In this document: in pieces, positions 15,171-35,476 of the stretch | How the letters are laid out: every line of letters starts with the position of its first letter | Numbering within the stretch: position 1 is the stretch's first letter | Position numbers and translations under genes: made by a program | IMG/VR virus record: IMGVR_UViG_3300047546_001285 | Coordinates: 1 to 35,476 of that record | Direction: 5' to 3' (one strand) | DNA: 35,476 bases | From: a virus | The notes under the pieces: model-generated | Databases searched by the model: none | The model's input: the letters and a program-made list of their open reading frames with translations, nothing else | What the model was told of the DNA's origin: nothing

Positions 15171-17030
15171 TTATGATATTTCACAGTTCCCTCCGCTACA
15201 TGCGAGGTTCTCACTCAGATTTGTATTGTCTCCGATCTCTACAATATTTGCGACATTGATGGCGTGCAAGTTCTTAGATAGTTCCAAGTATGTAACCTCA
15301 TCGATTGTTTCAAATGGAGTCTGTTGGTACGAGCCCAAATCTTCAGGAAGGAACGAAAGGCCGTTGTAGAAGTTTTGATTCTCCCACAACCACTCGCCTA
15401 CTTCTGCCCACTCATCTTGTTTGATGGTTACAGTTGCACTTACGTTATGTGTATTGTTTCCGAAGTTGTGTCCCGGTTGAATCCAATTCTGATGTAAGTA
15501 CTTTACTCTTTCTAAAAATGAAAGTGCGGTCTCAGAACTTCTTGTAATCGCTCCCTTAGGTGCAGCCACAGGAATAGAAATAACCGCTTGAGATTGTGGC
15601 TTCATCACATCGTCTTCAAGTAATTCAGGATGATACAACGATAAGTAAGTGTACATTGCCTCATTCTTTCCTACACGAATTCTACGGATGTAGTACTCAT
15701 CGTGCCAAGCATGTACGCCTGATGATGTACCGAGAACCAAAGAAGAAGTTCCCGAAGGTTTCACACAAGTGATACGAGCAGCACGATTGATTCCAATCTT
15801 CTCAGCAAACCACTCGTTTGCCACAGTAGCAACCCCAGTAGCCTCAGCTAAATCTAATTTCAAAACTGCTCCGCTTGCAATACCTGTCATACCAATTCCC
15901 AATAGGGCCTCAGCTTCTGTTGTTTTCTTCCACACACTACGCAAGTAATGGAAATCTGTGTAAGATGCTTGCAAAGTTCCAATGACAGCAGCATAGAAAA
16001 CACGAGAGTTGAAATCTTCTTGGTCTGCGACATCAGAAGCATTGACTTCCACCAAGTTACAGAACTGAAATGAATTGAGGGCAATCTCACAACAAGGATT
16101 GGTGCCCATCTCAATATCATTTGTGAAATAGAAACCGGGCTCACCTGAGTTACTCAACTCAACTTTCTTCCAAAGTTCCAAGAATGATTGTTTATCAACG
16201 TCTCCGTTTCTTTCAATCACTGCACTGTTGTTGGCACGACCACGCTGAGGATTCAGTTCCCACCAATTACCAAACTTGCAGGTCAACATGTCCTCATCAT
16301 CGTAATCAAACAAAGAAATCATTGCAGATCTACGAATACCACCACTCAAAACCGCATCAGCAATATGACACAGAATATCGTGACAATCTACAGAAGTTAA
16401 TTTTTCACCGTCTTGTTTGCGGTCAAGGATAGCCTCAATATGAGTCAAGCACATCTTCAGTGGCTCAGGTCCTGGAGCAACACCACCACTAGTAATCAAT
16501 CGCTCACCTTTTGGACGAATAGCACGATAATCAAAGTTGGGTTTCCAAGTGCTGAGACCGAAGTAAGACTTCATCAAAACCTTAATAGAATCAGCCCATC
16601 CTTCAATTGAATCACCAATCAAGTATCTTCTGTTTCTCTCAGCCTTTTTAATTTTAGGCAAAGCGTTGATGTGTTTACGCTGAACAGAATAACCTACACC
16701 TGTACCTGAAAGAAGAAGAAACATTGTCTCGTTGAATGCACGATAATCATCAATGTGCAAGTAAGAGCAGTTGAACAAACGAGTGTTGTTTACCTCAATT
16801 GGCTTGCCCCCAAACTGAAGTGAACGCATGGAAGGAAGAATCTTCTTAGAGTAAACCAATTCGTAAGCCTTTTCAATAGTCTCACTCAACTCAGGAAACT
16901 TCTTTAAGTGCATTTCCTTATTGCGGTCTACGAGTTCAGTCCAAGTTTCCCTGCGACCCAATTCAGGTACGTATTTGGCGTATTTCATCCAAACCGTGAT
17001 GTCCGATAGTATAGCGTGATTTAGTTCCAT
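15171..17030 (-). CDS. nrdJ: Class II (adenosylcobalamin-dependent) ribonucleotide reductase
   Basis: This 619-residue enzyme is of the monomeric ribonucleoside-triphosphate reductase type. C88 in LFNCSYL and C324 in FQFCNL are the redox pair. NPCCEI at 312-316 gives the thiyl Cys (C313) and E315; the 11-residue spacing to C324 matches Lactobacillus leichmannii RTPR. C611 and C616 in ACSGGNCEIS are the C-terminal shuttle. It makes deoxynucleotides for phage DNA using vitamin B12 and needs no oxygen or small subunit. Its neighbours are MazG-like and polymerase genes. At about 740 residues the L. leichmannii enzyme is longer, so some surface or allosteric parts may be missing. Confidence 0.88.
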   Translation of the reverse strand: MELNHAILSDITVWMKYAKYVPELGRRETWTELVDRNKEMHLKKFPELSETIEKAYELVYSKKILPSMRSLQFGGKPIEVNNTRLFNCSYLHIDDYRAFNETMFLLLSGTGVGYSVQRKHINALPKIKKAERNRRYLIGDSIEGWADSIKVLMKSYFGLSTWKPNFDYRAIRPKGERLITSGGVAPGPEPLKMCLTHIEAILDRKQDGEKLTSVDCHDILCHIADAVLSGGIRRSAMISLFDYDDEDMLTCKFGNWWELNPQRGRANNSAVIERNGDVDKQSFLELWKKVELSNSGEPGFYFTNDIEMGTNPCCEIALNSFQFCNLVEVNASDVADQEDFNSRVFYAAVIGTLQASYTDFHYLRSVWKKTTEAEALLGIGMTGIASGAVLKLDLAEATGVATVANEWFAEKIGINRAARITCVKPSGTSSLVLGTSSGVHAWHDEYYIRRIRVGKNEAMYTYLSLYHPELLEDDVMKPQSQAVISIPVAAPKGAITRSSETALSFLERVKYLHQNWIQPGHNFGNNTHNVSATVTIKQDEWAEVGEWLWENQNFYNGLSFLPEDLGSYQQTPFETIDEVTYLELSKNLHAINVANIVEIGDNTNLSENLACSGGNCEIS

Positions 17031-24175: not shown

Positions 24176-24522
24176 GTTAGGAGGTCTTTGAATTTTTTAC
24201 GCTTATCAATTTGTTCTGTTCTATGTTTCTCTTTCTCTAGTTCAGGTACTCTTCTCAGCATGCTTTCTTCAAGAATATCTGAGGCGCTAGTTTCAAGGAA
24301 GTCTACAAAGGTAATGTATTTTGCTAATTCTGTCCAAGAAGATTTTCTAATTACTTCAGTTGCCTTTTCGTAACTTGAACAATCCTTGTAGATCATAGCA
24401 TCACCAATTATATCTGACAGCATATCAGTACGATAGCGAATGTAGTTGTCGTCTGTTATTGCAAAAATAAACCCGCTGGGTGTGTAGATTAATATCTTTT
24501 CCCAATCAAATGAGTCCTTCAT
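24172..24522 (-). CDS. Unknown protein, 116 residues
   Basis: The N-terminus is beta-rich and aromatic (FDWEKILIYTPSGFIFAITD) and the second half is helical and charged, ending EKEKHRTEQIDKRKKFKDL. It overlaps the end of the serine recombinase gene by 17 bases. No motif is known. It may be an accessory of the recombinase by position only. Confidence 0.55.
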   Translation of the reverse strand: MKDSFDWEKILIYTPSGFIFAITDDNYIRYRTDMLSDIIGDAMIYKDCSSYEKATEVIRKSSWTELAKYITFVDFLETSASDILEESMLRRVPELEKEKHRTEQIDKRKKFKDLLT

Positions 24523-25201
24523 ATATGTTGTTTCTTAGTATTTTGGTTATGGTTGTTGATTCTATTCTCCCACCTTTCTTGCCTTTGATTCCTTGTTTGT
24601 TTAGTTCACGGGCTATGTCTTTGTAAGTGAGGCCTCCCTCCCTCAAATCGTAAACCGTTTTGACTATCTTCATTTCACTATCATCAGGTATTAGTTTCCC
24701 ATCAACTTTGAGAAAGCCCAATGGGGTAACGCCACAATATACCTTGCGTTCTTTCTTTAAGTGTGACATAACACTTGTGATAAGTTCTCCCCTTTGATTG
24801 GATTCAAACTCAGCAAATGCTGCAATCATTTGAAGCATAAGTTTGCCGTGAGATGTACGAGTGTCTACTTGAAAGTCTTGCGTGTAGAATGCCACGTCTT
24901 TCTTTTCGAGGAAGTCAATCCATTTCAAAGTATCTTTGAGGTTCCTACCAAAACGAGATAGACTGTATACGGCAACTACATCAATCTTCTTTTGTTCAGC
25001 CAATCTAATCATCTTCATAAACTCAGGGCGATTCTCAAATCGTTTACCTGATACGCCTGGATCTGAGAACTGATAACGAATCTCGCAGTCGTTCATATTA
25101 CAGAACGCTTGTAGTTTCTCTAACTGATTGTCTAACGAAGAGCCGTCTTCGACTTGGTCAACGTGTGACACCCTCGTGTATATCGCTGCTACTTTCTTCA
25201 T
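24506..25201 (-). CDS. Serine recombinase (resolvase/invertase type)
   Basis: In this 231-residue protein, residues 1-140 are a serine-recombinase catalytic domain: AAIYTRVSHVDQ with the nucleophile S12, DPGVSGKRFENRP, YSLSRFGRNLKD (catalytic Arg) and GKLMLQMIAAFAEFE leading into the long E helix. Residues 150-231 are a short recombinase/helix-turn-helix region (GLTYKDIARELNKQGIKGKK). The zinc ribbon and coiled coil of large serine integrases are absent, so it is nearer to resolvases or invertases. I saw no flanking inverted recombination sites. It could resolve genome multimers or switch DNA. Confidence 0.85.
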   Translation of the reverse strand: MKKVAAIYTRVSHVDQVEDGSSLDNQLEKLQAFCNMNDCEIRYQFSDPGVSGKRFENRPEFMKMIRLAEQKKIDVVAVYSLSRFGRNLKDTLKWIDFLEKKDVAFYTQDFQVDTRTSHGKLMLQMIAAFAEFESNQRGELITSVMSHLKKERKVYCGVTPLGFLKVDGKLIPDDSEMKIVKTVYDLREGGLTYKDIARELNKQGIKGKKGGRIESTTITKILRNNIYEGLI

Positions 25202-25544
25202 TTTTAGTTTGCTTTTCTTTTAGTTTTCCAATTGATGATTTAATAATCTGATTCATAATTGTATTGTAATCTACTCCGATTGTATTGGCGTATGCTGCCA
25301 ATGTCGTGGAGTTTCTTCGTGTCATTGTAACATTGATTAACTTGTTAGGCTTTCTTTTGGCAAATGCTTTTCGTGATAATCTAACTCTATGTTTGATGCA
25401 GTAGTAATAAACTAAATCAGACACCAATACATCTACGTCTCTAAAATCAAATTTGTGTGCAAGTTGATGCAATTGATCGTACAGTCCATTAGGAATACTA
25501 ATGGTTGTTTGGTGTTTTGATTTTTGTTTTCTTACTTTCTCCAT
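25158..25544 (-). CDS. Putative ribbon-helix-helix DNA-binding protein
   Basis: I chose ATG 25544 (128 residues, MEKVRKQKSKHQTTISIPNG). Residues 12-50 (TTISIPNGLYDQLHQLAHKF) and residues about 70-110 (NKLINVTMTRRNSTTLAAYA) each look like a beta strand followed by two helices, so two RHH-like units may be present. It is basic. It overlaps the recombinase gene by 44 bases, an unusually long overlap, and may regulate it or help it bind DNA. The RHH call is by pattern and not certain. Confidence 0.5.
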   Translation of the reverse strand: MEKVRKQKSKHQTTISIPNGLYDQLHQLAHKFDFRDVDVLVSDLVYYYCIKHRVRLSRKAFAKRKPNKLINVTMTRRNSTTLAAYANTIGVDYNTIMNQIIKSSIGKLKEKQTKNEESSSDIHEGVTR

Positions 25545-25663
25545 CTTGTCCAATATATCCAAAATCCTAATAAGCCAATGATTGTAAAGTCTACAATACA
25601 AGGGGCAAAGTCAGACCAAAAGTTCTTTAGTCTAATCGATAGAAAATACAATCGCTTCTTCAT
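25532..25663 (-). CDS. Small membrane protein, 43 residues
   Basis: A short frame from ATG 25663 to TAA 25532 overlaps both neighbours. It begins MKKRLYFLSIRLKNFWSD. It has one hydrophobic helix (IVDFTIIGLLGFWIYW) and a basic end (TRWRK), giving a positive-inside single-pass protein. Support comes from the good membrane profile and from the gap it fills between two genes. Confidence 0.45.
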   Translation of the reverse strand: MKKRLYFLSIRLKNFWSDFAPCIVDFTIIGLLGFWIYWTRWRK

Positions 25664-26275: not shown

Positions 26276-26496
26276 GAGTGTTGTTTTAAGTATTCGATTA
26301 TTTTGTTTTCTAGTCCGTTTGTTTCATCAAGAATGTGTTTGAGTGTATCCAAAGACGAACTCTTAATGTGAGGGTGTTTGAACTCCTCTCCATTCCAATA
26401 AGCAACGGTATCTTCACGGTGGAACATATTCCACATTTTGTTAAATGGATTGTAATGTAACAACCAATCGTAAGTGCTCTTTATCATGATATTCAT
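26272..26496 (-). CDS. Small unknown protein, 74 residues
   Basis: ATG 26496 overlaps the glucosaminidase stop (ATGA); a second in-frame ATG lies three codons later. The N-terminal half is aromatic (STYDWLLHYNPFNKMWNMF) and the C-terminal half helical (DTLKHILDETNGLENKIIEY). Function unknown. Confidence 0.58.
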   Translation of the reverse strand: MNIMIKSTYDWLLHYNPFNKMWNMFHREDTVAYWNGEEFKHPHIKSSSLDTLKHILDETNGLENKIIEYLKQHS

Positions 26497-26993
26497 TTTA
26501 CTGACTTTAGTGTTTGAACATATCGTGGGTCGGAAGCATACGAACCGTCAATCTTATTTAAATATCTGTTTTGTATGTGAATGTAGCACTTAATACAATC
26601 TCTATACGTATTGTATTTTGCGTACACTCCATGCTTGCCGGCTACAAATTTACAATTGTGGTACGTAATTCCAAATAAATTTTTTGCCTGTTGTCCCACA
26701 TTAGACTTGCCGTGATTACTTTCTATCTTAGATTGTGCACACGCCATTGCTGCTAACACTGCACCGTTCTTAGTTAATTCGGCTGTTATGCCTGAGTCTG
26801 TGAGTTTGACGTCTTGTTCTGTAACTGCCTCAACTGTTTTAGTATGAGTTATGTATCGAATCTTTTCTGGGAGTTGGCTATAATAAATCAAGCCTGAGCC
26901 CAATAAAATGTTAATCAAGACAGATACCCAAAAACCTTTGGTCATATCTCTGTACCGAACCAATTGAAGGTCGTCATTAATTTTTAATATCAT
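26493..26993 (-). CDS. Membrane-anchored glucosaminidase-like lytic enzyme
   Basis: In this 166-residue protein, residues 1-19 are cytoplasmic and about 20-38 form a membrane helix (GFWVSVLINILLGSGLIYY). Residues 75-166 resemble the glucosaminidase (GH73/FlgJ-type) domain. AAMACAQSKIESNHGKS carries the likely catalytic Glu (E91), followed by AKNLFGIT and YAKYNTYRDCIKCYIHI. It would cut the glycan chains of peptidoglycan from the periplasmic side of the inner membrane. It is far from the other lysis genes, which suggests an earlier role or superinfection control; that is inference. Confidence 0.72.
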   Translation of the reverse strand: MILKINDDLQLVRYRDMTKGFWVSVLINILLGSGLIYYSQLPEKIRYITHTKTVEAVTEQDVKLTDSGITAELTKNGAVLAAMACAQSKIESNHGKSNVGQQAKNLFGITYHNCKFVAGKHGVYAKYNTYRDCIKCYIHIQNRYLNKIDGSYASDPRYVQTLKSVK

Positions 26994-29134: not shown

Positions 29135-29554
29135 TTAATAACCGTTTTCTCTTAGTTCTATTTCTTGTTGGAAGTGATACCCCCAAGGTGTCAAAGCAAA
29201 TGACTCAACGAGTCCTACGTAATACCAAAAGATATCGTACAATGAGTCGTCTGATATTTCTGATAATGTCATTGGGTCGGGGGTCTCAAACCTCATCCCT
29301 TCCTCATACGCACGTCTCCATAACATTGTATCTCTCCACTCTCTAACACCCAATGCACACAACATAAACCTAACAGGTTTCTTTGCAATGGTATCAATGT
29401 CAAGGTTAGGCTTCTCTTGCCACTCCGCAAGAAGTTTACCCTGCTTATCTTCAATGACACCGCTAGTCAAGGCATCATCATAAATACTTCTGTCATAAAA
29501 CCATAGGGCTGTATTGCCCATGAATTTCTTTGTTTGTTCTGTTTTAGCTTGCAT
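29135..29554 (-). CDS. Unknown Trp-rich protein, 139 residues
   Basis: A helical, aromatic protein: NTALWFYDRSIYDDALTSG, KPVRFMLCALGVREWRDTML and DIFWYYVGLVESFALTPWGY. No catalytic motif that I can name. It overlaps the first paralogue of the tandem array by 11 bases. Its FETPDP codons carry a GGGGTCTCA copy (29280-29288). Confidence 0.58.
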   Translation of the reverse strand: MQAKTEQTKKFMGNTALWFYDRSIYDDALTSGVIEDKQGKLLAEWQEKPNLDIDTIAKKPVRFMLCALGVREWRDTMLWRRAYEEGMRFETPDPMTLSEISDDSLYDIFWYYVGLVESFALTPWGYHFQQEIELRENGY

Positions 29555-29864
29555 AACTTAATTGGTTTAATCGATTAATTTCTTCATAAATTAATTTAAG
29601 GTCGTTGTTTATTTTTTCAATCAGTTCGTCTGTTGGTTTACAGTAATATATTTCTTTCGTTCTATGGTCATCGGGAGTTGCCCATCCCCGAACGTATATT
29701 GTAGGCTCAATATGGTGGATACCCCACTCAGGACAAGCGGATGACTGTATGACAATGCCTCTTGTGTTTATCTGAATATGATCCATATTACGAACCCGCT
29801 GATACACTACTCGCATGAATACATCATCGTCTTTTCTTACGAGCAAAATTCTAAAGGGGTACAT
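29544..29864 (-). CDS. Tandem-array paralogue 5 (PFRILLVRK/RVVYQ family)
   Basis: This is a 106-residue member of a five-gene family lying head to tail. The N-terminus MYPFRILLVRKDDDVFMRVV is followed by Y-Q. The middle has YVRGWATPDDHRTKE, matching the family's xxRGD-x-x-x-x-DH place with GWA instead of GDQ. The C-terminal helix ends NNDLKLIYEEINRLNQL. It is the most diverged in the central loop. No known family. It overlaps the next copy by 14 bases. Confidence 0.68.
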   Translation of the reverse strand: MYPFRILLVRKDDDVFMRVVYQRVRNMDHIQINTRGIVIQSSACPEWGIHHIEPTIYVRGWATPDDHRTKEIYYCKPTDELIEKINNDLKLIYEEINRLNQLSYAS

Positions 29865-30123
29865 GATTTTTTATTGTTTGGTTAATTTGATTTAATTTTA
29901 AAATAGTTTCTTCTGTGTATGGTACACTCTCTACCAAATTATTGTAAGGGGAATAATCCCCTCTTAGGTACACGCCAAAAAACATACCTGTAATTAATTG
30001 TGGAGACCAAGAGCAACGAACTATAAAATTATCTGTGACTAGGTCTGGTCGACCGTCTTGATAAACAACACGGTAGAATAGACGGTCTCCTCTTTTTACG
30101 ACTAATACTTTAAACTTGTTCAT
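29851..30123 (-). CDS. Tandem-array paralogue 4
   Basis: This 90-residue protein has NKFKVLVVKRGDRLFYRVVY then QDGRPDL at the N-terminus. GVYLRGDYSPYNNLV keeps RGD but has lost the DH pair. The C-terminal helix is EETILKLNQINQTIKNH. The first 40 residues are closest to paralogue 3 (RVVYQEGRP). It starts inside the end of paralogue 3. Function unknown. Confidence 0.68.
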   Translation of the reverse strand: MNKFKVLVVKRGDRLFYRVVYQDGRPDLVTDNFIVRCSWSPQLITGMFFGVYLRGDYSPYNNLVESVPYTEETILKLNQINQTIKNHVPL

Positions 30124-30391
30124 GGATTGAATTGTTTATTCTTTCAACAAAAGCCACGATGTCATCTGAGACCCGACCTTCTGATCTTTGGTGATACTCG
30201 TGATCAGCACGTCTCTGATCTCCTCGTAAAAATATTGTACCAATATCATCCTCAACAGCAAGTTCTACGCAGTCACAACAATTAATTTTTACATCGATGT
30301 CACGGTTTAACGTAGGTCGACCCTCTTGATATACTACACGAGTATAAAGATAGCCTTGTCTTCTAACGATTAAGAGTCTAAAAGGGTACAT
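30110..30391 (-). CDS. Tandem-array paralogue 3
   Basis: This 93-residue protein has YPFRLLIVRRQGYLYTRVVY at the N-terminus, then QEGRPTL, a CCDC cluster, and IFLRGDQRRADHEYHQR, the full central signature. The C-terminal helix is DIVAFVERINNSIHEQV. It and paralogue 1 share FLRGDQR-ADH almost exactly. Overlaps are 14 bases with paralogue 4 and 22 bases with paralogue 2. Function unknown. Confidence 0.7.
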   Translation of the reverse strand: MYPFRLLIVRRQGYLYTRVVYQEGRPTLNRDIDVKINCCDCVELAVEDDIGTIFLRGDQRRADHEYHQRSEGRVSDDIVAFVERINNSIHEQV

Positions 30392-30654
30392 TTTATTTTT
30401 TCATTAAATTCGTGAAGAGATGGAAGATATCTATCTAGATTGGAAAAATTATTTGGTCTGTGTTCTTCGTGAGATATATCAAAACCATCTATTATATTTT
30501 CTTTTCCGTATCTACTTCTGGGATATGTCGAATAGTAACCATCGTTGTATTTGATTCCGTACTCGGGGTAGTCTTTTCCGTTTGAATATACTCTGCGAAA
30601 AGAATAGCCGTCGTTTTTTCTAACTATGAGGATTCTAAATGGATATGTTTTCAT
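30370..30654 (-). CDS. Tandem-array paralogue 2
   Basis: This 94-residue protein has KTYPFRILIVRKNDGYSFRR at the N-terminus, then V-Y-S-N-G. The central signature is largely lost but a HEEHRPNN remains where DH normally stands. A Tyr-rich loop (KYNDGYYSTYPRSRYGKE) is unique to it. The C-terminal helix is SLHEFNEKIKCTLLD. It is framed by overlaps of about 20 bases on both sides. Confidence 0.68.
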   Translation of the reverse strand: MKTYPFRILIVRKNDGYSFRRVYSNGKDYPEYGIKYNDGYYSTYPRSRYGKENIIDGFDISHEEHRPNNFSNLDRYLPSLHEFNEKIKCTLLDS

Positions 30655-30952
30655 GGTAGTAATTGTTTACTTCTTGTATCATTGATTTTAAATCATCAAT
30701 ATCTTCATATTCATAATATGATTTATCTATTCTGTGATCTGCGTGACGTTGGTCACCTCTAAGAAATAAAATATTTTCGCTAGACCTTAACTCGGGAGTA
30801 TTGACTGACTTAATCTTTAGTGGTCCCCAATGTTCAGTGTATTGGTAATGATCGGGATAAATAACAGGGTCCTGTCTAACAACTCTTGTGAGTACTTGAT
30901 CGTCTTTGATGACGCACAATACTTTTATATTTTTGAAGTTTATACTTTCCAT
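30635..30952 (-). CDS. Tandem-array paralogue 1
   Basis: This 105-residue protein is the first gene of the array. The N-terminus is NFKNIKVLCVIKDDQVLTRV then VRQDP. The central signature is ILFLRGDQRHADHRIDK. The C-terminal helix is DIDDLKSMIQEVNNYYHENI. Behind its start lies the hairpin that holds a GGGGTCTCA copy. It probably begins the array's translation, and the others follow by overlap. No function can be assigned. Confidence 0.7.
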   Translation of the reverse strand: MESINFKNIKVLCVIKDDQVLTRVVRQDPVIYPDHYQYTEHWGPLKIKSVNTPELRSSENILFLRGDQRHADHRIDKSYYEYEDIDDLKSMIQEVNNYYHENISI

Positions 30953-31011: not shown

Positions 31012-31803
31012 TTAAAACAAAGATTCTGTATAAGATTTAACTGCCTTATGGTGTGTCTTGCACATAGCACACTGACAATTAACTAGGTCATCACCATACC
31101 CTTTCATCAACTCTATACCACAGTCAAGACAATAGCCCAATTCAATAGATGACTTCTCATAATCATCATCGAATTTATTGTAGTAATCATTCCAATCTTT
31201 CGATGCATAATCTACATTGGCATTGGTAGTCTTGGTGGTTTGTAGTTGGTGTCCGTAGTAGCGGAGTGTTGGATCGAGATAAGACTTGTTGCTGAACCAT
31301 GACTCACCATCCCAAAAGCCTGCTTTCTCATTGACAATAGTAACCTCATTGTCATTGCCCATAAAGATAAGTTTGTTGTATGAGCCAATGAAGTCAGCGA
31401 TAAGAGTCATGACGCTGTTGGACTTGGTAAAGTTCTTGGGCATATCTTTGAGGAACTCATTGAAGTGCCACGTGTCAGAGAACTCTGATACCCCGTAAGA
31501 GAAGTCATTGATGATACCATTGTGTACAAAACCTACAGTCTCGTCGACAATGAACGGGTGGATGTTACGTTCATCAACTACACCGTGAGTACGAATACGG
31601 AAGTGCAGTACAACTTTCTCGGTAACTTTGCGAACCTCTTGATACTTTTTGAAGAATGCTTTGAATGATTTGAGTTGCTTATATACTTGCAACTCTCCGT
31701 TCTCTACCCACAACATACCTGCACCGTCATCGTTAGAGTTCCAGCAGTTCTGTAATGTTTTCTTGGTAAGTAAATCTTTGTTGTTGTAAATTGCGATACA
31801 CAT
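31012..31803 (-). CDS. Class II glutamine amidotransferase-like protein with zinc ribbon
   Basis: This is a 263-residue protein. It begins MCIAIYNN, so removal of Met exposes the catalytic Cys2 of an N-terminal-nucleophile amidotransferase. DDGAGMLWV (25-33), LHFRIRTHG (66-74), NIHPFIV and GFVHNGII (91-98) match the class II glutamine amidotransferase core. It would release ammonia from glutamine. The C-terminus has five Cys (C225, C228, C243, C245, C248) in a zinc-ribbon-like arrangement. The upstream neighbour is an amidoligase, a pairing known in phages and bacteria, so the two may jointly form amide bonds. Confidence 0.8.
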   Translation of the reverse strand: MCIAIYNNKDLLTKKTLQNCWNSNDDGAGMLWVENGELQVYKQLKSFKAFFKKYQEVRKVTEKVVLHFRIRTHGVVDERNIHPFIVDETVGFVHNGIINDFSYGVSEFSDTWHFNEFLKDMPKNFTKSNSVMTLIADFIGSYNKLIFMGNDNEVTIVNEKAGFWDGESWFSNKSYLDPTLRYYGHQLQTTKTTNANVDYASKDWNDYYNKFDDDYEKSSIELGYCLDCGIELMKGYGDDLVNCQCAMCKTHHKAVKSYTESLF

Positions 31804-31845
31804 GATTTTTAATTTTATTTTTTAATTGGTTGGTTGATTGATTAA

Positions 31846-33114
31846 TTAGTTAGTTTCGATTGGTAATGTAGTCATAGGACTAGTTGTGTTGTTCATGAAG
31901 TCATCTTGTTGTTCGGGTGTTAGGTCATCCCAATCTACAATGATGATAGGATTATCCCACACAGTACCCGCTACGTTGGTAATCTTCTTGACTTTCTTGG
32001 GTGCTTTGACAATCTTTTTCTTGACAAGATAGTTGTGAGTGTCGATGATGTCGAATGAATACTCACGACAATATTTGTAGAATAACTCAGCCTTGGCAAT
32101 GATTTGTTCTACACTGTACACCTTGCGAAGTAAAGCATGTAACTTACCACGACCATCAAGCATATTTTTGAGGACTTGGGCCTCACTTACATCACGATTG
32201 GATACCATATACTTAATAAGTTCAGTACGCCACAACAGATTAGATACATTACGAACAGCACCAAAGATACGAAACTCTAAACGAGAGTCTTTGATAAACA
32301 CCGCACCATACTTATCATTGGCACTACTATGCTTGGAGATAGCAGGACAATAAGTATTGTTGACACGACCATTGTACAAACAGTAAAGCAAAGGCATATA
32401 AGATTTGATAGACTGATACAACTCACGATTAGTCATACTGATGTGAGAGATATTGATATGACCACCACAAGACTTGGAGTAGTCAGCATCGATATAACTC
32501 TTTACATTGGCAAAGGTATCAGCATTGACCTTGAACATATCAAAGACAGGAGATACAAACTCAAAGCCACTGTAATCATCGAGAGAACCATCGCGTTCTT
32601 TTGCCCAACCCGTACGTCTGAAACATTCATACGCTGACTCTTCTGTCTTGACATCGTAGTCTTCTTTCTCTACCTCATAAGCAATACGCCACTCTGCACG
32701 CTGTGCCTCGGGAGAGAACACACGATTGCCCGAATGATAATCGAACGTGTAATCTTTATCGTTATCTTCTTCTTCGGTATAAAACTCACCGTCATCATGA
32801 AGATACAAGCCATAGTCACGAGCAACATCGTCGTTCATTGCGTAGTCAAAGCGGCAACCGTTGACTGAATAGTACTCACACTCATGACTAGAAAAGTAAC
32901 CGCAGTTACCGTGTCGGTCAATGAGTCCGTAAAGAGCATCGTCTCGCCAAATGTCTTCTTCGAGATACGAACACTCGACAATTCTACCTTTGTCTTGGAG
33001 GTCTTCATACTGTGTGTCAGTAAGCCAAGCGTCTAAGTAAGTGTAGTGTCTGGCTTGTGATTGAGGTACGATTGTACCATCGTAGGTCGTTACTAAAATT
33101 TCAGTAGTTTCCAT
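31846..33114 (-). CDS. Amidoligase family (COOH-NH2 ligase-like) protein
   Basis: This is a 422-residue protein. After an acidic 140-residue N-terminal region comes an amidoligase core. AYEVEKE (145-151) stands in the place of the usual GxExE strand. DGSL (175-178), GFEFVSP (183-189), CGGHINIS (216-223) and RLEFRIFGA (278-286) follow in the expected order. Amidoligases are ATP-dependent, glutamine-synthetase-like enzymes that join carboxyl and amino groups. The N-terminus (YLEEDIWRDDALYGLIDRHG, Cys- and Tyr-rich) is not part of the core and may hold the substrate or a partner. It lies 42 bases upstream of the class II amidotransferase. The substrate is unknown. Confidence 0.75.
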   Translation of the reverse strand: METTEILVTTYDGTIVPQSQARHYTYLDAWLTDTQYEDLQDKGRIVECSYLEEDIWRDDALYGLIDRHGNCGYFSSHECEYYSVNGCRFDYAMNDDVARDYGLYLHDDGEFYTEEEDNDKDYTFDYHSGNRVFSPEAQRAEWRIAYEVEKEDYDVKTEESAYECFRRTGWAKERDGSLDDYSGFEFVSPVFDMFKVNADTFANVKSYIDADYSKSCGGHINISHISMTNRELYQSIKSYMPLLYCLYNGRVNNTYCPAISKHSSANDKYGAVFIKDSRLEFRIFGAVRNVSNLLWRTELIKYMVSNRDVSEAQVLKNMLDGRGKLHALLRKVYSVEQIIAKAELFYKYCREYSFDIIDTHNYLVKKKIVKAPKKVKKITNVAGTVWDNPIIIVDWDDLTPEQQDDFMNNTTSPMTTLPIETN

Positions 33115-33134: not shown

Positions 33135-33497
33135 TTAATTGGTTTTAATTTGTTTTACATTGTCCCACAATTTAACAGACTGATTGTAAAGATAGACAGC
33201 CAATAAAGATTGTGCTTTTGATTTGTCGGTATAGTAACACTCTTGCTCACCTAAATACTCGGTCATTAATTCACCGTCATATACAAACCACTTGCCGTCT
33301 TTCGCGTATGGTAGTTCGCACTCCACACCCACGAGAGTATACTCAATGGCTTCTTCAATTGGTTCTTCTGGCTCGTCCCAATTAATGTTGAAAACCCGCA
33401 TCTCAGTGACACGAGTTTCAAATAGGTGAGTGTAGTGAGGGTGTAAGCACCACACAGTACTACCGATGGTTAGTTGTTGTTGTTCGTTTGGTGTCAT
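33135..33497 (-). CDS. Unknown protein of the amidoligase operon
   Basis: In this 120-residue protein, the N-terminal half is beta-rich (GSTVWCLHPHYTHLFETRVT). An acidic loop (EPEEPIEEAIEY) follows. The end is helical with TDKSKAQSLLAVYLYNQSV. The N-terminus could be a small SH3-like barrel. It is 20 bases upstream of the amidoligase gene. No family recognised. Confidence 0.6.
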   Translation of the reverse strand: MTPNEQQQLTIGSTVWCLHPHYTHLFETRVTEMRVFNINWDEPEEPIEEAIEYTLVGVECELPYAKDGKWFVYDGELMTEYLGEQECYYTDKSKAQSLLAVYLYNQSVKLWDNVKQIKTN

Positions 33498-33500
33498 TGC

Positions 33501-33599
33501 TTACCATTTTACTTTTTTAAGTTCAAGCATCCAACAAATGCCATAAGTGATTAGTAACAATAACGCTACCGCTATGACTGAATCAGTTAGTATTTTCAT
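33501..33599 (-). CDS. Tiny single-pass membrane protein, 32 residues
   Basis: ATG 33599 overlaps the upstream TGA (ATGA) and its TAA is 3 bases before the next start. Residues 5-24 form one membrane helix (TDSVIAVALLLLITYGICW) and the tail is basic (LKKVKW). The framing by neighbours supports it. Function unknown. Confidence 0.55.
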   Translation of the reverse strand: MKILTDSVIAVALLLLITYGICWMLELKKVKW

Positions 33600-34959: not shown

Positions 34960-35136
34960 TTTTTTTTACATTTTTTCAAAAATAATTTGTAACTAATTGA
35001 ATATCAATAACTTACAAAAGTAATTTAGAATAATTCTAAATAGCGTGGCGAAATTTCCCTTTTATATAATAGGAATCGGGCGCGCGCGTATGGTAGGTGG
35101 AAAGTGGTTGATTTGCAAATATGCAATGTCATTTTA
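34960..35136. other. AT-rich spacer with a GCGCGCGC patch, no gene seen
   Basis: From 34960 to about 35060 the sequence is A/T-rich with homopolymer T and A runs. A short GGGCGCGCGCGT patch lies near 35080, and a palindrome ATTTGCAAAT at 35111-35120. I see no supported gene on either strand. An AT-rich stretch next to repeats is typical of phage origins or control regions; this is inference. Confidence 0.4.
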
Positions 35137-35184
35137 TTGTCATAAAAATGTACGGGCTATCTTTGTCATATTATTGTCATAAAA
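35135..35184. repeat. Two copies of TTATTGTCATAAAA
   Basis: TTATTGTCATAAAA occurs at 35135-35148 and 35171-35184, spaced 36 bases, with further TGTCAT copies between and before them. They flank the -7 box of the possible rightward promoter, so they may be regulator-binding sites. Confidence 0.6.
35137..35165 (+). promoter_or_regulatory. Possible rightward promoter (TTG-N18-TATCTTTG)
   Basis: TTG 35137-35139 and TATCTTTG 35158-35165 are 18 bases apart on the plus strand. It would drive genes beyond the right edge and be divergent from the promoter at 34917. The iteron-like repeats lie downstream in its leader. Confidence 0.4.
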
Positions 35185-35229
35185 TCCAATTCACTTGTTT
35201 AATTCATGCCTTTTTATTATAGAAATTGG

Positions 35230-35373
35230 TGTCCAAAAAAACAGACATTTGTTCGTTACCCTTGTAGTATGCAGTAGACAACCAAAGTGATCAGTTTTCT
35301 GGACAGTAATTGTCTAAAAAAATGGACATGGCTGTCTAATTTAATGGAAATCGTGTGTCCAATTTAATGGGCG
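35230..35373. repeat. Four 18-base iteron-like repeats, TGTCYAAWWWAAHRGRM-type
   Basis: Copies are TGTCCAAAAAAACAGACA (35230-35247), TGTCTAAAAAAATGGACA (35311-35328), TGTCTAATTTAATGGAAA (35333-35350) and TGTCCAATTTAATGGGCG (35356-35373). The first two are imperfect palindromes with TGTC/GACA ends. The last three start 22 and 23 bases apart, about two helical turns, so a protein could bind them on one face. A further half-site TGGACA is at 35300-35305. They could be replication iterons or repressor operators. Confidence 0.65.
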
Positions 35374-35476
35374 GGGAGTTTTATTTTGACGGGGGTGGAC
35401 CCGGAAATGCAACGTTTACCTACCCCACTCGCACAAACAGTAAATTTAAAAGGTAGGGGGGGTATAACCCCGGGGG
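35374..35476. other. G-rich end region, no gene seen
   Basis: This stretch alternates G-rich and C-rich blocks: GACGGGGGTGGACCCGG, CCTACCCC, GGTAGGGGGGGT. It ends with a small hairpin, GGGGT-ATA-ACCCC. I see no gene wholly inside it; a gene start just beyond the edge is possible. Confidence 0.4.

Follow-up and report, generated by a model that had tools for sequence, protein, structure and literature searches.

A divergent phage pair of predicted amidoligase and class II glutamine amidotransferase genes and its likely glutamine-dependent amide-forming chemistry

The window, meaning the whole stretch of DNA that was analyzed, comprises the 35,476 bases of an IMG/VR virus record. On its minus strand lie an amidoligase gene and, 43 bp downstream of it, a gene for a class II glutamine amidotransferase, as shown in Table 1. 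The open reading frames, coordinates and motifs quoted for this locus in the initial annotation were all found on that strand. The neighboring genes named there were present as well, except for the one placed at 33501, where no open reading frame of at least 40 aa was found.

Table 1. Coordinates of the gene pair and its predicted parts in the window.
Feature	Position	Strand	Basis
Amidoligase gene, glutamine-synthetase-like, divergent Amidoligase_2 relative, 422 aa	31846-33114	minus	ORF, relatives, model
N-terminal domain (residues 1-137), probably of degenerate LIM/zinc-ribbon-like repeats, with the YHSGNR motif near its end	32704-33114	minus	pLDDT, relatives
Glutamine-synthetase-like catalytic domain, residues 138-345	32080-32703	minus	invariant residues, VIA-align
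Amidoligase C-terminal part, residues 346-422	31849-32079	minus	low pLDDT, tail alignment
Class II (Ntn) glutamine amidotransferase gene, 263 aa	31012-31803	minus	ORF, profile matches, fold
Ntn glutaminase core, residues 1-185: Cys2, Arg69, Asn95-Gly96, Asp110	31249-31803	minus	invariance, GlmS alignment
C-terminal zinc ribbon, C225-x2-C228 ... C245-x2-C248	31060-31131	minus	sequence

Both genes were also found, with their order kept, in the sister contig 3300033067_000449 (L001), which was the sole close relative of the pair detected. Identity between the two contigs was 69% for the amidoligase and 85% for the amidotransferase. The dN/dS values relative to L001, calculated with a Nei-Gojobori script, were about 0.25 and 0.13, respectively, and both genes are therefore maintained under purifying selection. 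Since L001 keeps the two reading frames in order, with low dN/dS, they are not chance ORFs.

The motifs DGSL, GFEFVSP, CGGHIN and RLEFR all fall within the amidoligase, which carries the conserved motif set of this family (ExE, DGS...GxE, GxH and E-x-R). Residues E147, E149, D175, E185, G217, H219, R250, E280 and R282 were identical in all 54 aligned amidoligases. No Pfam family, PF12224 included, matched the window protein, and its match to phrog_7469 ("amidoligase") in PHROG was weak (E = 0.013). PF12224 (Amidoligase_2) was matched by 21 of the 54 aligned amidoligases, with a best E-value of 1.2e-10, the window protein not being among them. As the Pfam signal of the window proteins themselves is weak, the family assignment rests on their relatives and on structure.

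The AlphaFold2 model of the amidoligase was confident, with a mean pLDDT of 86.4. In structural searches with Foldseek, residues 138-343 matched glutamine synthetases (GS), GmaS and YbdK, with E-values from 1.7e-4 to 1e-3 and probabilities up to 1.00 for GmaS and GS. Comparison of the same residues by VIA-align yielded Z 9.6 with human GS (rmsd 3.9, 172 aligned) and Z 9.3 with YbdK (rmsd 3.9, 186 aligned). Among viral models (BFVD), the structural matches that carry names were mostly phage amidoligases, including those of crAss-like and Cellulophaga phages.

The last 27 residues of the amidoligase (31849-31929) are identical in L001 despite predicted disorder. A role of this tail as a docking or self-tag peptide was considered and set aside; the tail is limited to the window and L001.

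Residues 1-137 form a separate region, with pLDDT mostly above 90 in the AlphaFold2 model. At the same place, many relatives carry CxxC-rich repeats, with as many as nine CxxC, and others have comparable acidic repeats that lack cysteine pairs. Several of the CxxC-rich N-termini finish in an IHxYSYxP-like motif, and many of those without cysteine pairs finish in a YHSGxR-like motif. The N-terminus of the window amidoligase contains no CxxC and therefore looks like a degenerate derivative. Among the BFVD structural matches is one with the name "LIM domain containing protein". Judged from the repeats of the relatives and from this LIM-named match, the extension is probably a degenerate LIM/zinc-ribbon-like repeat array. 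The acidic, Cys/Tyr-rich N-terminal extension pointed out in the initial annotation does exist, yet the whole family shares such a region, apparently made of degenerate LIM/zinc-ribbon-like repeats, and it is no special addition to this protein. It also evolves faster than the catalytic domain, with 47% versus 79% identity to L001.

The amidotransferase starts with Met-Cys and carries CLDC...CAMC at its end. M1-C2, R69, N95, G96 and D110 were invariant in all 49 aligned amidotransferases, and a CxxC...CxxC tail was present in 38 of these 49 relatives. The match of the window protein to GATase_6 (E = 4e-4) lay under the Pfam curated cut-off, and that to GATase_4 was also weak. The amidotransferase profile matched GlmS and PurF, with GlmS aligned around HTRWATHG...HNG. 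For the AlphaFold2 model, likewise confident with a mean pLDDT of 82.7, the best structural match was the glutaminase domain of GlmS (Foldseek E = 1.5e-8), followed by PurF and EgtC. One further locus (L005, 5001-6218) encodes a fusion protein in which the amidotransferase is joined by a GGACT gamma-glutamyl(amine) cyclotransferase domain and, at the C-terminus, a zinc ribbon.

Co-occurrence of the two genes was determined from both sides. When starting from the amidoligase, an adjacent amidotransferase was present in 75 of 80 viral relatives; four of the other five contigs end before an amidotransferase could appear, and the fifth has one about 700 bp away. Ten of these 80 loci were amidoligase-amidotransferase-amidoligase triplets. 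On the amidotransferase side, a profile built from six sequences retrieved 519 relatives from viral contigs, and 80 of these were retained. The contigs of this set overlap with those of the 80 amidoligase relatives, so that the two are not independent samples. By script count, 85 of 97 loci had an amidoligase no more than 200 bp upstream. These loci include some duplicates, and several of the exceptions seem to reflect start-codon artefacts, contig ends or an amidoligase lying downstream. The divergence of the two proteins was correlated (Pearson 0.68 over 42 pairs, with 0 of 2000 permutations as high), uncorrected for shared phage history. A fused amidoligase-amidotransferase protein was also looked for, and none was found among the collected ORFs.

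The pairing is nearly obligate among viral contigs. Hundreds of them encode a relative of the amidotransferase, and the amidoligase almost always adjoins it where the flanks allow checking. The view of the two genes as an amidoligase-amidotransferase module, put forward in the initial annotation, is supported by the families of the relatives, by the folds, by the invariant catalytic-type residues and by this near-obligate adjacency in both directions. Neither a loss of the predicted ATP/metal-binding residues nor an absence of the pair from related genomes, both named there as outcomes that would speak against a module, was observed.

The same search in bacterial and archaeal genomes yielded only 11 relatives. 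Clear cellular pairs often lay beside recombinases, or beside further amidoligases and a cyclotransferase. In a Brachyspira contig (L103, 4065-9381), an amidoligase, an amidotransferase, two further amidoligases and a cyclotransferase stand in a row. In an Ignavibacteriae MAG (L097, 3793-9627), the pair is flanked on one side by a recombinase and on the other by a short prokaryotic Argonaute together with its associated Aga-type protein and a TIR-like gene.

The phage of the window encodes a replication set consisting of DNA polymerase, primase-helicase, ribonucleotide reductase and metallophosphoesterase, together with thymidylate synthase, a resolvase-type recombinase and an Arc-like repressor. 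The last two (24506-25601) could mean that the phage is temperate. The ribonucleotide reductase (15171-17030) shares 62% identity with its counterpart in Microcystis phage Mel-JY01, and the polymerase is far less close to that of any listed phage. A membrane-anchored glucosaminidase-like gene is located at 26493-26993. A stretch without an obvious gene (34969-35437) is 75% identical over about 496 bp to positions 7168-7658 of L001 and has no Rfam match; no RNA family of Rfam was found elsewhere in the window either. A tally of 76 neighbor Pfam families, made in search of a conserved third gene, consisted mainly of replication and nuclease genes and revealed no recurrent partner. Known defence families were likewise considered, and PADLOC gave no convincing match for the window proteins tested.

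The two genes are proposed to specify a single glutamine-dependent amide-forming enzyme whose parts lie on two polypeptides, and we assign this reading a probability of about 60%. Glutamine-dependent amide formation is the likely chemistry of the predicted enzymes. Once Met1 has been removed, the Ntn amidotransferase would use Cys2 to hydrolyze glutamine and free ammonia for the amidoligase, with which it would presumably form a complex. With ATP and a divalent metal, the amidoligase would activate a carboxylate as an acyl phosphate, the residues concerned presumably being E147, E149, E185 and E280 together with the H219/R250/R282 set. Attack of ammonia, or of another amine, on the acyl phosphate would then give the amide. 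Binding of the partner or of a macromolecular target is the probable role of two further parts, the amidotransferase zinc ribbon and the degenerate LIM-like repeats in the amidoligase.

Most likely, such an enzyme would benefit the phage by converting carboxylates of the infected cell to amides, possibly in peptidoglycan peptides or in proteins. In 11 loci (9 distinct sequences), a relative of the glucosaminidase follows the amidotransferase on the same strand at a distance of 2.9-4.9 kb downstream. This synteny is a circumstantial hint of a role at the envelope, but the gene could be a lysis gene in related phages.

Several other readings of the pair were considered. A possible, if tentative, one is that the two proteins amidate or tag a specific host or phage protein recognized by the zinc-ribbon/LIM-like repeats. 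The large, well-folded and fast-evolving N-terminal domain, the LIM-like repeats of the relatives and the presence of PafA/Dop, enzymes that act on proteins, among the structural matches of the amidoligase are consistent with it. However, the repeats could instead bind a partner enzyme or nucleic acid, and no co-conserved substrate gene was found among the loci searched.

It is unlikely that the pair serves a gamma-glutamyl cycle, in which, as in pathways of EgtC or GmaS type, the amidoligase would link glutamate through its gamma-carboxylate to an amine and the Ntn enzyme would hydrolyze or transfer the gamma-glutamyl group, with no ammonia channelling. The Foldseek matches to GmaS and EgtC point in this direction, as do the GGACT fusion of L005 and the GGACT genes near the module in L103, LUZ24 and StenR_269. 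That fusion is, however, a single case, and for the amidotransferase the GlmS glutaminase is a better match than EgtC in both structure and sequence. Searches with the LUZ24 and StenR_269 proteins also revealed no recognizable cyclotransferase in the window.

A bolder reading can also be formulated, which we consider quite unlikely. The pair would then be a widespread phage enzyme, sufficient on its own, whose degenerate LIM-like repeats direct it to a specific host macromolecule; glutamine-dependent amidation would mark this target, possibly to block host defence or competing phages. A role in such conflict would fit the cellular copy beside the short-Argonaute defence system.

An assignment to small-molecule metabolism, with the pair making an amide metabolite, a cofactor or a nucleotide derivative as an auxiliary metabolic gene for nitrogen handling, appears improbable. 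GS is the archetype of the fold, and Phage-ZRK32, which has genes of the same kinds, was reported to make a Pseudomonas strain grow better with nitrate or ammonium (PMC10945688); that study links such genes to nitrogen use but did not address them one by one. Targeting-type repeats would moreover be unexpected in a small-molecule enzyme, and the neighbors of the pair are mainly replication genes.

The small genes around the pair include those at 33135, 33596 and 33863 and a tandem array of five paralogous small proteins (29544-30952) with the motif YPFRxLxVRK...RVVYQ...FLRGD, of which L001 has three copies. Among the loci examined, relatives of these neighbors and of the array were found only in L001; direct scans with one array gene and with 33135 gave none beyond it. 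The idea that they encode dedicated substrates, carriers or anchors, also raised in the initial annotation, is highly improbable: they lie close by on the same strand and the array varies in copy number, but they are absent beside the widespread pair in all other loci searched and are therefore poor candidates for conserved substrates or carriers.

When compared with known systems, the order of amidoligase followed by amidotransferase was also observed in the named phages LUZ24, Marvin, MEP401/402 and StenR_269. The pair is known from LUZ24, tf, UFV-P2, Marvin, the OM43 phages MEP401/402 and RIO-1-like phages. No direct experimental test or measured activity was found in the literature for such a pair or a close relative. 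Papers citing Iyer et al. 2009 credit that work with the idea of cell-wall modification against superinfection.

The modules of LUZ24-like, phiEco32-like and RIO-1-like podoviruses resemble the window in having an amidoligase and then a class II amidotransferase, of the same predicted families, in the early/replication region. However, these modules often add an ATP-grasp, a second COOH.NH2 ligase and a gamma-glutamyl cyclotransferase, none of which was found in the window by phmmer with LUZ24 and StenR_269 proteins, the window possibly being a genome fragment. The extra ATP-grasp and cyclotransferase genes of some phages suggest peptide or gamma-glutamyl chemistry rather than simple ammonia transfer and count against the main reading. 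Identity to LUZ24 gp18 and StenR_269 was only about 18-19%.

Adjacent pairs are also present in the Methylophilales phages MEP401 and MEP402 and in the isolate ctgrD200. The window amidotransferase is 40% identical to MEP401 gp06, whereas the amidoligases of these three phages are only about 20-25% identical to that of the window and have a different, longer N-terminus. In mycobacteriophage Marvin, gp105-gp106 show the same order and the same two families but are very divergent, and both are annotated merely as glutamine amidotransferase domain proteins. A passage in PMC10580990 cites a possible link of the Marvin pair to secondary metabolites or host interaction.

At the family level, PF12224 (Amidoligase_2) shows the same conserved residues across the alignment, although the window protein falls short of the model. 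With the class II glutaminase domains of GlmS and PurF type, the amidotransferase shares the Ntn fold, the Cys nucleophile and the Arg, Asn-Gly and Asp positions. Unlike GlmS and PurF, it stands alone, with its own zinc ribbon and no synthase fusion. The window pair is a divergent, minimal member of the known phage amidoligase/GATase module of LUZ24, tf, Marvin and MEP401/402, and its compact two-gene form without accessory genes is convenient for testing phage amidation of cell wall, proteins or metabolites.
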